Positions 21,730-29,021 of a DNA stretch of 64,000 nt are shown piece after piece. Location of the stretch: NCBI RefSeq assembly GCF_000337675.1, contig NZ_AOIB01000015.1, forward strand, positions 93,060 to 157,059, written 5' to 3'. The first letter of the stretch is position 1. Each line of letters starts with the position of its first letter. Origin of the DNA: Natronococcus amylolyticus DSM 10524. GTDB lineage: Archaea; Halobacteriota; Halobacteria; Halobacteriales; Natrialbaceae. Under the pieces are notes generated by a model. It did not search any database and had not been told where the DNA came from. It saw only the letters and a list, made by a program, of their open reading frames with translations. Made by a program: the position numbers and the translations under genes.

Positions 21730-22914
21730 ATGAGTGAGTCGCGTGCGTTCTGTCCCCGGTGTGGGGATCCGGTACCCGACCGATCGGCGAGCGACGCGGA
21801 CGCGGCCGCGGATCCGCTCCGACCCGGGACGGAGGTCGAACTCTGTGACAGCTGTTACTTCGACGACTTCGACTTCATCGACGCGCCGGATCGGATCGAC
21901 GTCCAGGTCTGTGCCCGCTGTGGCGCCGTCCACCGCGGCAACCGGTGGGTCGACGTCGGCGCACAGGACTACACCGACATCGCCATCGAGGAGGTAAGCG
22001 AGGCCCTGGCGGTCCACGTCGACGTCGAGGACGTCGCCTGGCAGGTCGAGCCCGAACAGGTCGGCGAGAACACGATCCGGATGCACGCCTACTTCACGGG
22101 CGTCGTCCGCGACACGCCCGTCGAGGAACAGGTGATGGTACCGGTGAAGATCGCCCGTCAGACCTGTACCCGGTGTGGTCGGATCGCCGGCGACTACTAC
22201 GCCAGCATCGTCCAGATCCGCGCGGAGGACCGAACGCCGACGAGCGAGGAGGTCGACCGCGCCAAGGAGATCGCGAACCAGGTCGTCGCCGACATGGAGG
22301 CGACGGGCGACCGCAACGCCTTCGTCACCGAGACGAGCGAAACCGACGACGGACTCGACATCAAGGTCTCGACCAACAAGATCGGCAAGAAGATCTCGAA
22401 CAAGATGGTCGAGGAGTTCGGCGGGACCGTCAACGACGCCGAGACGCTCGTCACGGAGGACCAGGACGGCAACGAAGTGTATCGAGTAACGTTCGCCGTC
22501 CGGCTCCCGCCGTACACCCCCGGCGAAGTCATCGACCTGGCGAACGACGACGGCGGGCCGGTCCTCGTCCGCAGTGCCCGAGGCAACCTCAAGGGAACCC
22601 GCGTGACGACCGGCGATCGCTACGAGGCGAGCTACGAGGAGGGGAACTCGCCGGAGGCCCGCAGGCTCGGCGACCTCGAGGACGCCGTCGAGACGACGGT
22701 CGTCACCGTCGAGGACGAGAACGCCGTCCAGGTGCTCGATCCCGAGACGTTCCAGGCCAAGACGGTCGCTCGGCCGGACTACTTCGATCCCGACGCCCAG
22801 ACGGTACCCGTGCTGAAGAGCCGCGCCGGGGTCCACGTCCTGCCCGATTCCGACCCCGACACCGGCGACGAGGAGGACGACGGCTACTACGACCCCTACG
22901 AGGACGATGCCTGA
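21730..22914 (+). CDS. nmd3: NMD3 family ribosome export/biogenesis protein
   Basis: A 394-residue archaeal homolog of eukaryotic NMD3, the 60S export adaptor; in archaea it is presumed to act in large-subunit maturation. Four zinc-binding CxxC pairs are seen: CPRCGD (8-13), CDSCYF, CARCGA and CTRCGR. The central domain contains TNKIGKKISNKMVEEFGGTV and the C-terminal domain LPPYTPGEVIDLANDDGGPV. Start at 21730 gives the first zinc pair at the N-terminus. It overlaps the next gene by eight bases. Confidence 0.94.
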   Translation: MSESRAFCPRCGDPVPDRSASDADAAADPLRPGTEVELCDSCYFDDFDFIDAPDRIDVQVCARCGAVHRGNRWVDVGAQDYTDIAIEEVSEALAVHVDVEDVAWQVEPEQVGENTIRMHAYFTGVVRDTPVEEQVMVPVKIARQTCTRCGRIAGDYYASIVQIRAEDRTPTSEEVDRAKEIANQVVADMEATGDRNAFVTETSETDDGLDIKVSTNKIGKKISNKMVEEFGGTVNDAETLVTEDQDGNEVYRVTFAVRLPPYTPGEVIDLANDDGGPVLVRSARGNLKGTRVTTGDRYEASYEEGNSPEARRLGDLEDAVETTVVTVEDENAVQVLDPETFQAKTVARPDYFDPDAQTVPVLKSRAGVHVLPDSDPDTGDEEDDGYYDPYEDDA

Positions 22915-24157
22915 GGAGTCCGATCCCGAGCCGAACGCGACGACGACGATGGACTCGCTCGAGCGCGCCGACGCGCCGCTGGCGGCCATAGTCGAGCGGA
23001 CGCGAACGGAAACGGCCATCGAGTCGCTTCGCGCCGAGGGCGTCTACGACGACTCGCGGCGCGTCCAGGCGGTCAGCGACGGGGTCCGCGACCACGGCGG
23101 GCGAGCCGACGACGCGCTCGAGGCGGACCGGGCTGTGAGCGAAACGGCTTCAACCGAGGGTGACGCGACTCGCGAGGACGATCCCGAGCGAATCGCGCTC
23201 CCGATCACCGAGCCCCCGGCCGAAACGCGCGTCCTCGAGGTCGTCCGCCAGCTCGAGCCCGAACTCCGGAGTCAGGACCTTGAGGACCTGCTGACCGAAC
23301 GGGGCTGGAGCGACGACGACCTCGAGCGGGCGCCCGGTTCGTGGGCCGTGATCGGCTCCGTCGTGCTCGTGACGATCCCGACCGAGTGCCCCGACGAGAC
23401 CGACGTCGCCGAGGCCTTGCTCGAGCTCCACGGCGGGGCCGACAGCGTGCTGGCCGACGAGGGGATTGCCAACGAGGGGACGGCGGGCGCCTACCGCGAA
23501 CCCCGCACCCGCCTGCTCGCGGGCGAGACGGACACCGAGACGGTCCACACCGAACACGGGACCCGGTACGGGCTCGACCCCGCGAAGGTAATGTTCTCGC
23601 CGGGAAACCAGGCCGAGCGGGCGCGGATAGGCGAGGTCGTCGAGCCCGGGGAGCGGGTGTTCGATATGTTCGCCGGTATCGGCTACTTCACGCTCCCGGT
23701 GGCCCGCGCGGGCGCGACCGTCACCGCGACCGAGCTGAATCCGACCGCCTTCCGCTACCTGCTCGAGAACGCCGTCCTCAACGACGTCGCAGACCGGGTC
23801 GACGCCTACATGACCGACTGCCGGGACGTCGCGGGCGACCTCGAGGTCGACAGGGTGGTGATGGGCTACTACGGACGTAACGACGACACGGGAGAGGAGA
23901 CGGACGACACACACAGCGCCAGGGTCGGCGAGGCCCACGAGTTCCTCCCCGCCACCCTCGAGGCCCTCGTACCCGATGGGATCGTCCACTACCACGAGGC
24001 GGTTCCCGAGTCACGGCTATGGGATCGCCCGATCGAACGGCTCGAAGCTGCCGCCGCGGACGCGGGCAGAGCGCTCGAGGTCCTCGAAACGCGACGGGTC
24101 AAGAGCCACAGCGCGGGCGTCGCCCACGTCGTCGTCGACGCGCGGTTCGGCGAGTGA
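22907..24157 (+). CDS. taw2: Trm5/TYW2-family tRNA-modifying enzyme, probably Taw2
   Basis: A 416-residue class I SAM-dependent enzyme. An N-terminal acidic region and a middle domain (RVLEVVRQLEPELRSQDLED) precede the SAM fold: KVMFSPGNQAERARIGEVV, motif I VFDMFAGIGYFTLPVA, ATELNPTAFRYLLENAVLND and DRVVMGYYG. Trm5 methyltransferases have an NPPY or NLP motif where this protein has MGYYG, which favours the TYW2/Taw2 branch that transfers the aminocarboxypropyl group during wyosine synthesis on tRNA-Phe. That choice is inference. Its ATG lies within the nmd3 3' end (ATGCCTGA overlap), so translation is coupled. Confidence 0.8.
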   Translation: MPEESDPEPNATTTMDSLERADAPLAAIVERTRTETAIESLRAEGVYDDSRRVQAVSDGVRDHGGRADDALEADRAVSETASTEGDATREDDPERIALPITEPPAETRVLEVVRQLEPELRSQDLEDLLTERGWSDDDLERAPGSWAVIGSVVLVTIPTECPDETDVAEALLELHGGADSVLADEGIANEGTAGAYREPRTRLLAGETDTETVHTEHGTRYGLDPAKVMFSPGNQAERARIGEVVEPGERVFDMFAGIGYFTLPVARAGATVTATELNPTAFRYLLENAVLNDVADRVDAYMTDCRDVAGDLEVDRVVMGYYGRNDDTGEETDDTHSARVGEAHEFLPATLEALVPDGIVHYHEAVPESRLWDRPIERLEAAAADAGRALEVLETRRVKSHSAGVAHVVVDARFGE

Positions 24158-25556: not shown

Positions 25557-27392
25557 CTATCCGTCCGTATCCCAGACGTCCGCTAACGGACTCGAGCCGG
25601 AGGAGTTCCTCGAGCGCGACCGGGAACCGGAACTACCGCGGGCGCTGCTCGAGTTCCGCCCCGAACCGCCTCGCGAGCGACCGCCCGAACTCGAGCCCTC
25701 ACTTACCGCCGCCTGCGGCTCGAACGCCGGCAGCTCCGGGCGCTCCATCCGATCGACCTGCGCCGCGAACCAGTCGGGCATATCCGAACGGGCGCGGTCG
25801 AAGACGTCGAGCAGGCTCGAGTCCGCGAGGTAGGTCGCGCCGTAGTCGTCGGGCGCGCGGACGACCCGGCCGCAGGCCTGGATGATCGTCCGCAGGGCAG
25901 TCCGATAGTACCACGCCCACTGGCCCTCCTCGAGGCGGTGGGCGACCCTCGAGTCGCCGGTGTTGAGAAACGGCGCCTTACAGAGCACCTGCCAGCGACA
26001 GAGCTCGCCCTTGAGGTCCAGCGCCTCCTCCATCTTCACCGAGAGGAAGACGTCGGGGTCGTCGCTCGCCTTCCACTCCTCTAAGGCGGCGTCGCGACTG
26101 TCCCGGTCGTGGACGCGGATTCGATCGCCGACACCGAAGTCCCGTAGGAGGTCGGCCAGCCGCTCCTGGATGTCGTAGGAGTGGGCGTGAACCAGCCCCT
26201 TCTCGTCGGGATGTTCCTGCATGACCTGGACGATCGTGCGGGCGAGCTTCGGCGTCGTCTCCGAGCGGTGTTCGTAGGTCATCTTCCCCTGCGTGACGTC
26301 GTACAGCGGGCGGTGTTCGACGGGGAACGTGTGCTCGACGTCGACCAGGGCGACATCGGCGGGGTCGAGTCCGACCTGCCGACAGAACGCCGCCTTGTTC
26401 AGGATGGTCGCCGACAGCAGTGCGAACTTGTTCCCGCGGTCCCAGACCGTGTGGCGCAGGTAGCGCTCGGGATCCATCGGCTTGATCGTCAGCGGGCCGC
26501 CGAGCTTCTCGCCGTCCCCCTCTGAACCACCACCGTCGCCCTCGTTTTCGCTGGAGCGCAGGTCAGATTGGTCGACTAACCACGTCGTCGCGCTCTGTGG
26601 ATCCCGGTAGTCCGAGACGAACCAGTCGAGCTCGCCGATCAGCTCCTGGAGGCGGTCGCGCTGGCGGACCTCGCGGGGCGTGAGCGACTCCTGGGACAGT
26701 AGCTCGTCCTTCCGGCGGGTACAGATCTGGGCGACGTTCTCGGCGTACCGGACCGCTCGATCCAGACCGTCGACCTCCGGAACACGGAGCTCGTCCCAGA
26801 ACGGCACCGTCCGCGGCCCGAGCTGGATCGTCGCGTACATTTCGGCCCACTCCGCCAGTCCGTGGGCCTCGTCGATCACGACGACGTCACGCGTGCGAAA
26901 CACCTCGCTGCCGGCGGTCTGCATGAAGTAGGCCAGCGTCATCGCCGCGATAGACCGGTTCGAGGCGATCGCTCGGTCGGAGAAGTACGGACACCGGTGT
27001 TTGACCGAGCAGTCGTACCCTCGTTCGCGGACGCAGGGGGCCTGGTTGACAGGCGTCTCGCGCTCGTCGGGGAGGATGCAGGTGTAGTTCGATTTCCCAC
27101 GGATGACGTTCAGATCGGCGAGCAGGTCGTCGGCCGCGACGTCGTCGAGCTGGGAGACCTGCGGGGTCGTGTAGTAGGCGCCCGCGGCCTCGCTGGGCTC
27201 GGCCTCCTCGACGGTTCGGGCGCAGCCGGCGACCGCGCGGGCGAGCAGGGACTTCCCGCTGCCCGTCGGCGCGCGCACCAACACGACGTCGTTGCCGGCC
27301 GCGAACGCGTCGCGAACGTCGCGGAGGGCCTGCTCCTGGGCCCCGCGGTAGCTCGGCGCGGGGAAGGCGTCGAAGATCCGCTCGGGGTTCAC
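25557..27392 (-). CDS. XPD/DinG-type Fe-S ATP-dependent DNA helicase
   Basis: A 611-residue superfamily 2 helicase. Walker A is APTGSGKS (41-48), four cysteines at 105, 120, 128 and 134 form the Fe-S cluster domain, and the DEAH box is at 174-177. The C-terminal motor has KVHAHSYD-like GLVHAHSYDIQERLADLLRD, HRLEEGQWAWYY and QACGRVVRAPDDYG. The last 60 residues are an unusual Ser/Gly/Arg-rich tail. Start: GTG at 27392, with CTTTAGG about 26 bases upstream as TATA box; an ATG at 27557 would add 55 residues without family likeness and would nearly reach the tRNA-like sequence. Role: DNA repair or unwinding. Confidence 0.87.
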   Translation of the reverse strand: MNPERIFDAFPAPSYRGAQEQALRDVRDAFAAGNDVVLVRAPTGSGKSLLARAVAGCARTVEEAEPSEAAGAYYTTPQVSQLDDVAADDLLADLNVIRGKSNYTCILPDERETPVNQAPCVRERGYDCSVKHRCPYFSDRAIASNRSIAAMTLAYFMQTAGSEVFRTRDVVVIDEAHGLAEWAEMYATIQLGPRTVPFWDELRVPEVDGLDRAVRYAENVAQICTRRKDELLSQESLTPREVRQRDRLQELIGELDWFVSDYRDPQSATTWLVDQSDLRSSENEGDGGGSEGDGEKLGGPLTIKPMDPERYLRHTVWDRGNKFALLSATILNKAAFCRQVGLDPADVALVDVEHTFPVEHRPLYDVTQGKMTYEHRSETTPKLARTIVQVMQEHPDEKGLVHAHSYDIQERLADLLRDFGVGDRIRVHDRDSRDAALEEWKASDDPDVFLSVKMEEALDLKGELCRWQVLCKAPFLNTGDSRVAHRLEEGQWAWYYRTALRTIIQACGRVVRAPDDYGATYLADSSLLDVFDRARSDMPDWFAAQVDRMERPELPAFEPQAAVSEGSSSGGRSRGGSGRNSSSARGSSGSRSRSRNSSGSSPLADVWDTDG

Positions 27393-27573
27393 CGTTCGAT
27401 CCACGGGGCGGTCGCGTCCTAAAGGCTGCGAACCGTTACGCCGCGTGCAACTCCCGTCGTCCGTTTCGCTCCTCGCAACTCGAGAAATTATCACTTGTCG
27501 GGGCGTAGGCGGTCGATACGACCGGAGTAGCGGGTCGATTACGAATACGGTTCCCACCCTTGGCTGCGAGTAC

Positions 27574-27662
27574 GGAAGGGTCGCTCAGCGGTAGAGCACC
27601 GCGGTGCCGTCAGGCCCGCGGCGGCCATCGTGCCTCGTGGCGTTCAAATCCCACCCCTTCCG
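27574..27662 (+). tRNA. tRNA-like sequence with aberrant anticodon arm (pseudo-tRNA?)
   Basis: A 7-bp acceptor stem (GGAAGGG 27574-27580 with CCCTTCC 27655-27661), a 4-bp D stem with loop AGCGGTA (27583-27597) and a consensus GTTCAAATC T loop (27642-27650) are intact. The T stem has one bulged C (27641). Instead of a seven-base anticodon loop there is a long hairpin, CCGCGG (27599-27604) paired with CCGCGG (27616-27621), capped by GCC-GTCA-GGC, then a 15-base variable region. No anticodon can be read and no standard intron fits. Flanking GCGAG (27566-27570) and CTCGC (27663-27667) extend the acceptor stem across a two-base bulge. It is either a decayed tRNA or a tRNA-like RNA. Confidence 0.55.
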
Positions 27663-27750
27663 CTCGCGGCGCCGGGTCGAACTCGATCGCGACCGTGCTT
27701 TCGGTGGTGTGTCACACGCTCGCTCTCTCGTCCCTCCTTCCGGCGCCGCC

Positions 27751-28076: not shown

Positions 28077-29021
28077 ATGGAGGTGAACTGTCGCGGCTGT
28101 GCGGGTTGCTGTCTCGACTGGCGGCCGCTGCTCGAGGCCGACGAGGAGCCGGAGAGACGCCAGCATGCCCGACCCACACTACGCGACGGCGATGCCGAGC
28201 GCGAGCAGCCGTTCTCCGAGCGCGTGCCGCTGGGCGGCAGTTACAACTTCGTCGCGCTGACCCGCGACGAGGTCCGGAGCTTCCTCGAGCGAGGGTCGGC
28301 CGCGGCACTGACACCGCGGTTCTGGACGGTCGAGGACGAGGGCGAGGGCGTCGAAGTCGGCGACCGATACGTGGCCGCCGTCGCTGGCCGTCCGGTCTTC
28401 TTCGTCGGCCTGCGAAAACCGCCGAAACCCGTCGCCCCCTTCCGCCGCGAGGAGGCGACGTGGCTGCCGACCTGCGTCTTCCTCGACCCGACGACGCTGC
28501 AGTGTCGGATCCACGGAAGCGACCGCTTCCCCGACGAGTGCGGAACCTATCCCGAGCAGACCATCGCGCTGGGCGCCGAAACCGAATGCGAGCGCGTCGA
28601 GGATCGGTTCGGCGGGGAACGTCTGCTCGAGCGCGACCACGACGACCCCGACGGGCTGCTGTTCGGTCCGCAGGCGCTGGGCGCGAAGCTGTTCTGTCAC
28701 CCCCGCCCCGACGAACTCGAGGGGATGCTCGACCGACTCGAGCGAGGCGAGCCCTCGTCGGCCGATCGGGCCAAGTGTATCGCCGTCGCCGCGGCCTCGA
28801 GTCCCGGTACTGTCGCCGTCTCGGAGCCCCACTACGAGCAAGCGCTCGAGCGACTCGAGGCCGACGAAACGAACGGGGACGACGGGTGGATCGGTCCCGC
28901 GATCGAGGACTGGTACCGACGTCGGGATCGAACTCGAGCCGGCGGAACGGATCCGGATCCCGAGCTCGCGAGGACGATCGAGGACCGACGCGACGCACCC
29001 GATACGCCAGGCTGGGACTGA
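28077..29021 (+). CDS. YkgJ family cysteine-cluster protein
   Basis: A 314-residue protein with the cysteine cluster CRGCAGCCLDW at residues 5-15, CVFLDPTTLQCRIH near 141-154, CGTYPEQ near 164 and CHPRPDE, the spacing of the YkgJ/UPF0153 family thought to bind zinc or an Fe-S cluster. The C-terminal third is charged and helical. The molecular function of the family is not settled. It is followed after 59 bases by the SDR gene, which has its own promoter-like element. Confidence 0.85.
   Translation: MEVNCRGCAGCCLDWRPLLEADEEPERRQHARPTLRDGDAEREQPFSERVPLGGSYNFVALTRDEVRSFLERGSAAALTPRFWTVEDEGEGVEVGDRYVAAVAGRPVFFVGLRKPPKPVAPFRREEATWLPTCVFLDPTTLQCRIHGSDRFPDECGTYPEQTIALGAETECERVEDRFGGERLLERDHDDPDGLLFGPQALGAKLFCHPRPDELEGMLDRLERGEPSSADRAKCIAVAAASSPGTVAVSEPHYEQALERLEADETNGDDGWIGPAIEDWYRRRDRTRAGGTDPDPELARTIEDRRDAPDTPGWD

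Follow-up and report, generated by a model that had tools for sequence, protein, structure and literature searches.

The element at positions 27574-27662 of the window (the whole 64,000-nucleotide stretch of Natronococcus amylolyticus DNA analysed here) probably encodes a conserved, stand-alone tRNA-like RNA that would act in trans and would not decode. Whether this RNA furthermore constitutes a new, apparently undescribed cellular RNA class that is widespread in Halobacteria, namely an archaeal tRNA paralogue with a closed hairpin for an anticodon arm and a dedicated non-decoding job (as amino-acid carrier or tRNA-shaped regulator), appears to us an evenly balanced question. The original prediction of a tRNA mimic unable to decode gains support, in particular from a family-wide conserved locus, covariation within the hairpin, and a promoter-like motif at a fixed distance.

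Architecture of the RNA and its locus

The features of the locus are as follows (window coordinates, strand, description, and basis):

25557..27557, minus strand: Rad3/DinG-type helicase (PF13307, PF06733), a divergent neighbour separate from the RNA that marks the orthologous locus; conserved neighbour in Natrialbaceae
27537..27549, plus strand: promoter-like AT-rich element GATTACGAATACG, 37 to 25 nt 5' of the predicted mature 5' end; motif conservation
27574..27662, plus strand: tRNA-like RNA gene, predicted mature RNA of 89 nt including the discriminator G; Rfam RF00005, covariance model R1, strict pattern
27574..27580, plus strand: 5' strand of the acceptor stem, GGAAGGG, pairing with 27655-27661; pairs invariant in 37 of 37 diverse members
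27583..27597, plus strand: D arm GCUC-AGCGGUA-GAGC; Rfam alignment, wide alignment
27599..27621, plus strand: closed hairpin at the position of the anticodon arm (CCGCGG, bulged U, GCC, loop GUCA, GGC, CCGCGG); covariation
27623..27634, plus strand: short variable arm GGC-CAUCGU-GCC of 3 bp, within a 15-nt variable region; covariation
27637..27654, plus strand: T arm GUGG-C-G-UUCAAAU-C-CCAC, the C at 27641 being bulged; bulge present in every member read
27655..27662, plus strand: 3' strand of the acceptor stem, CCCUUCC, and discriminator G73; Rfam alignment, wide alignment
28077..29021, plus strand: DUF7531/CxxCxxCC protein, a downstream neighbour separate from the RNA; often conserved at the locus

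The general tRNA family of Rfam (RF00005) matched the element with 33.9 bits (gathering score 29, E 2.5e-5) when a segment of 601 nt was searched, and it is the only family of Rfam 15 whose gathering score was reached. Model R1, built from 23 Natrialbaceae members, assigned 110.5 bits to 27574-27662, and the minimum free energy of the element lies at z = -3.4 relative to dinucleotide shuffles. The predicted fold agrees with the original prediction, bearing out the intact acceptor stem, D arm, and T loop, the 9-bp closed hairpin without readable anticodon (all nine pairs of which covary, see below), the T-stem bulge, and the 15-base variable region. Measured against a canonical tRNA, the acceptor, D, and T arms with a tRNA T loop (UUCAAAU) are present, whereas a 7-nt anticodon loop with U33 and a readable anticodon as well as an uninterrupted 5-bp T stem are missing. 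ARAGORN, which also seeks tmRNA, reported neither a tRNA nor a tmRNA in the window, 27574-27662 included. Flanking bases had also been proposed to lengthen the acceptor stem past a two-base bulge; GCGAG and CUCGC do pair in this way here, but several relatives, L015, L028, and L030 among them, do not form this pairing, which is therefore probably fortuitous.

Of 78 distinct Natrialbaceae-type upstream regions, 67 have the motif GATTACNA (at most one mismatch) at -37/-36, as compared to 24 of 696 control windows located further upstream. It is promoter-like, resembling a TATA-type element, and may drive transcription of the RNA. The true start of the divergent helicase gene probably lies downstream of its annotated GTG. 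A gene for a TRM5/TYW2-type tRNA methyltransferase is located about 3.4 kb 5' of the tRNA-like gene (window 22907-24157, plus strand).

Conservation in Natrialbaceae and distribution across Halobacteria

A BLAST-level search of 125 Natrialbaceae genomes returned matches in 119, some of them weak or to ordinary tRNAs; the full-length element at E<1e-20 is present in about 105 of the 125 (counted from the match table). In nearly all loci examined, the divergent helicase gene adjoins the element and the DUF7531 gene usually flanks it on the opposite side, so that the search for the sequence at the same locus in relatives, as originally suggested, had a clear positive outcome across the family. 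Several Natrialbaceae genomes have lost the element, and in one (G107) it is reduced to a decayed remnant (L142) that is still preceded by the upstream motif. Two further variations were observed: L041 (G036:C4, 2057-2225, minus strand) has about 80 additional nt inserted in the variable arm, which form a strong hairpin themselves and leave the acceptor and T arm intact, and genus g24 holds second, divergent copies away from the helicase locus (L056, L061, and L063 in genomes G112, G111, and G114).

Searches with R1 also revealed relatives in other haloarchaeal families. With a further covariance model, R2, members scored 71-101 bits (one divergent member 58) and canonical tRNAs of the same genomes at most 50. 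A strict exact pattern, composed of both acceptor strands together with the T loop and a portion of the D arm, matched 181 of 391 Halobacteria genomes and 43 of 86 genera, while the reversed pattern, which served as control, matched none. Carriers include Haloferax, Haloarcula, Halorussus, Haladaptatus, Halorientalis, Halobellus, Natrinema, and Natrialba; the strict pattern gave no match in genus g33 or family f2 (presumably Halorubrum and Halobacteriaceae, respectively) nor in about half of the class. Copy number varies as well, with two in some genomes and none in others. Taken together, the absence from about half of the class, the losses within Natrialbaceae, and the decay at L142 indicate that the RNA is dispensable. 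Matches of about 50-60 bits at the phylum level were considered as possible members outside Halobacteria, and the five examined turned out to be ordinary tRNA-Ser.

Outside Natrialbaceae, the neighbours (named by reading their sequences) are an Orc1/Cdc6 gene, glycosyltransferase and epimerase genes, or succinate dehydrogenase. Since the neighbours change between families while the RNA stays, it is not a cis element, and a cis-regulatory leader was ruled out on these grounds.

Some copies depart from the common form or setting. A shorter, 90-nt type resides on the 120-kb plasmid of Halorientalis sp. IM1011 (NZ_CP019069.1, 58771-58860; H21), the main contig of the same genome carrying the long type, and the related L109 lies near an Orc1/Cdc6 gene. 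A second tRNA-like type with a GAANGGG acceptor, a CCACC-NUCGC-GGUGG arm, and no T bulge was seen in 2 of 194 genomes (L131 in G146 and L139 in G262); at L131, it is situated 2 nt upstream of tRNA-Gly(UCC).

Covariation and constraint

The compensatory hairpin changes expected of a functional RNA were found at both levels of comparison. In the MAFFT alignment of Natrialbaceae, which was made without structural information, 12 two-sided pair changes were counted versus 2.7+/-1.3 in shuffles, and five of the nine hairpin pairs show such changes. A wide alignment of 37 members yielded 111 versus 30.3+/-6.5 in shuffles and at most 15 with partners slid, a covariation signal that is favoured because this alignment was fitted to the structure; here, all nine hairpin pairs and all three variable-arm pairs exhibit two-sided changes. 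On this basis, the hairpin at the anticodon position is a real, selected structure.

Constraint is distributed unevenly along the molecule. Hardly any variation is seen in the acceptor stem, the D arm, or the bulged T arm, and the hairpin is free in both sequence and length, yet paired. The acceptor stem is identical in 37 of 37 members of the wide alignment; in L135, a more distant member, A3-U70 is exchanged for U3-A70 and the T-stem bulge is kept. Among 156 distinct cores, this bulge is of C type in 78 and of U type in 77, at neighbouring stem positions, with a C elsewhere in the remaining core. Of 160 distinct cores, 123 have G as the discriminator, 36 have A, and 1 has C. Haloferax-type members possess a reduced variable arm or none at all.

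Intron, decay, and integration as alternative explanations

A missing anticodon could in principle be restored by splicing. Introns are known in the Trp, Met, and Gln tRNAs of haloarchaea (PMC7714728), and the host genome, which has an ordinary tRNA set, does include an intron-containing tRNA-Gln. However, some copies have an arm of 14 nt; that of L112 (CCACC-UUCG-GGUGG) is thus shorter than the 17 nt of an anticodon arm, which excludes an intron for this member. Moreover, the hairpin loops mostly measure 3-5 nt without conserved sequence, and 7-nt loops occur in merely 5 of 160 distinct members. An intron model that restores a normal anticodon, originally named as an observation that would overturn the prediction, is accordingly rejected, and we regard it as highly improbable. 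Likewise rejected, and even less credible, is a decaying tRNA pseudogene, as would be suggested by the lack of an anticodon and the bulged T stem: the element is shared by 43 genera, its paired positions covary while its acceptor stays the same, and genuine decay, as seen at L142, looks different. The host tRNA list, which is incomplete because the search does not detect intron-bearing Trp and Met tRNAs, contains no tRNA with a GGAAGGG/CCCUUCC acceptor.

The tRNA-like sequence might instead persist as an integrase attB at its 3' end, that is, as an integration site or mobile-element relic. Several genomes indeed hold extra 3'-end copies 100-300 nt downstream, as also seen behind ordinary tRNA-Thr and tRNA-Ser, one copy is carried by the 120-kb Halorientalis plasmid, and a tRNA-like attP has been described in a halovirus (PMC8707807). 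An att site, however, would leave unexplained the compensatory changes in the hairpin, the promoter-like motif at fixed distance, and the retention at a single locus across Natrialbaceae, and the exact pattern had no match in IMG/VR. The integration scar considered originally is therefore disfavoured and, in our estimate, improbable. A viral origin was likewise dropped after the search of IMG/VR with the exact pattern and that of a phage collection, the latter giving one chance match.

The downstream copies deserve a description of their own. They correspond to GTTCRANTCCCRCCCCTTCC or the equivalent tRNA end, follow at about 100-300 nt, sometimes up to four in series, and were recorded at L040, L111, L112, L113, L116, L117, L042, L043, L054, L123, L137, and L140 as well as at L145 (tRNA-Thr of the host genome, G000:C21) and L136 (tRNA-Ser). 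In the spacers, GGGATTYGA recurs in inverted orientation, and additional hairpins are present. Judging from this arrangement, the 3' ends of haloarchaeal tRNAs seem to host a family of very small elements or att scars.

Comparison with known tRNA-like RNAs

In the cases examined, the top-scoring ordinary tRNA against the models is the canonical type II tRNA-Ser of archaea. The Natrialbaceae RNA resembles tRNA-Ser(UGA) in its variable arm (GGC-N-GCC-UC) and G73, but differs in lacking an anticodon loop, in its T-stem bulge, and in its acceptor and D arm; members in other families moreover have A73 and no clear variable arm, so that a serine identity is not general.

In the tRNA-like domain of tmRNA, the acceptor and T arm are kept and the anticodon stem is replaced; the closed hairpin described here, in contrast, leaves no space for a tag reading frame, and ARAGORN reported no tmRNA. 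YrlA, a bacterial Y RNA (RF02553), is a cellular RNA whose body imitates that of a tRNA although it does not decode. An archaeal counterpart of such Y RNAs with a Ro60-like TROVE partner would fit this tRNA mimicry, and a match to RF02553 does exist, though at 14.4 bits it stays far below the gathering score of 69. Since TROVE is encoded in 12 of 125 Natrialbaceae genomes and is absent from the host genome (G000), leaving the RNA without a Ro partner there, we give this possibility very little credence.

The non-proteogenic tRNA-Gly of Staphylococcus aureus keep their anticodon arm, and haloarchaea are devoid of murein. In these cell-wall tRNAs, changes in the T stem keep EF-Tu off (PMC9976931); the haloarchaeal RNA has a conserved T-stem bulge that might affect binding of aEF1A. 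Charging and use are known for the Staphylococcus tRNAs and hypothetical for the haloarchaeal RNA. Viral tRNA-like structures and the tRNA-like attP of halovirus HF2 have imperfect anticodon arms (PMC9976931, PMC8707807), whereas the element described here stands alone as a gene on the chromosome, shows covariation, and is preceded by a promoter-like motif. Nor does it adopt the 8/4 or 9/4 fold of tRNA-Sec and allo-tRNAs, which is defined by a longer acceptor and a shorter T stem (PMC7609411), as the acceptor has 7 bp and the T stem 5 bp plus the bulge. The review of non-canonical tRNAs by Krahn and Soll does not mention haloarchaea and, in the sections consulted, contains no such fold (PMC7609411), and a literature search for an anticodon-less tRNA-like RNA of haloarchaea retrieved no description in open-licence papers. 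As Rfam 15 provides the general tRNA family only and no description was found, we group the RNA with the tRNA-like RNAs, with a fair chance that it represents a separate functional class. To our knowledge, tRNA mimics that are encoded alone on a chromosome and conserved over much of a class are rare, and we know of none in archaea.

Proposed role

We propose that the RNA would be transcribed independently, have its ends trimmed by RNase P and tRNase Z, and receive CCA. The missing anticodon together with the bulged T stem would bar it from translation, and a protein sensitive to the acceptor sequence would recognise the half formed by the acceptor, T arm, and D loop. A dedicated aminoacyl carrier for a non-ribosomal reaction is our tentative first choice among possible jobs, preferred because the acceptor sequence is invariant. 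The mixture of G and A discriminators and the weak variable arm of Haloferax-type members, on the other hand, constitute evidence against a single fixed synthetase identity. Nor did candidate users follow the distribution of the RNA: LPG synthase occurred in 0 of 33 and FemAB-like proteins in 32 of 33 irrespective of its presence, so that these co-occurrence comparisons were uninformative.

A somewhat doubtful alternative, whether taken by itself or as one part of the non-decoding role, is an uncharged decoy or regulator that binds, and thereby titrates or regulates, a stress factor or a tRNA-handling enzyme (RNase P, tRNase Z, the CCA-adding enzyme, or one that modifies the T loop). The acceptor/D/T half of a tRNA is what RNase P, tRNase Z, and the CCA enzyme recognise, and the constraint resides precisely in the regions contacted by such proteins, the hairpin merely having to stay closed; dispensability in some lineages would also be compatible with this role. 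Yet we know of no need of RNase P or tRNase Z for an invariant acceptor sequence, and GGAAGGG/CCCUUCC is fixed in nearly all members. Furthermore, the co-occurrence tests run (TROVE, LPG synthase, and FemAB-like proteins) uncovered no partner gene.

Implications

Automatic annotation conceals the gene of this tRNA-like RNA. At copies of the element, ARAGORN calls either no tRNA or a spurious one for Arg, Gly, Lys, or Cys, and haloarchaeal tRNA inventories may therefore hold phantom genes. Given that the carriers include the genetically tractable Haloferax, Haloarcula, and Natrinema, it would be directly testable whether haloarchaea make and charge an anticodon-less tRNA and use it outside translation.
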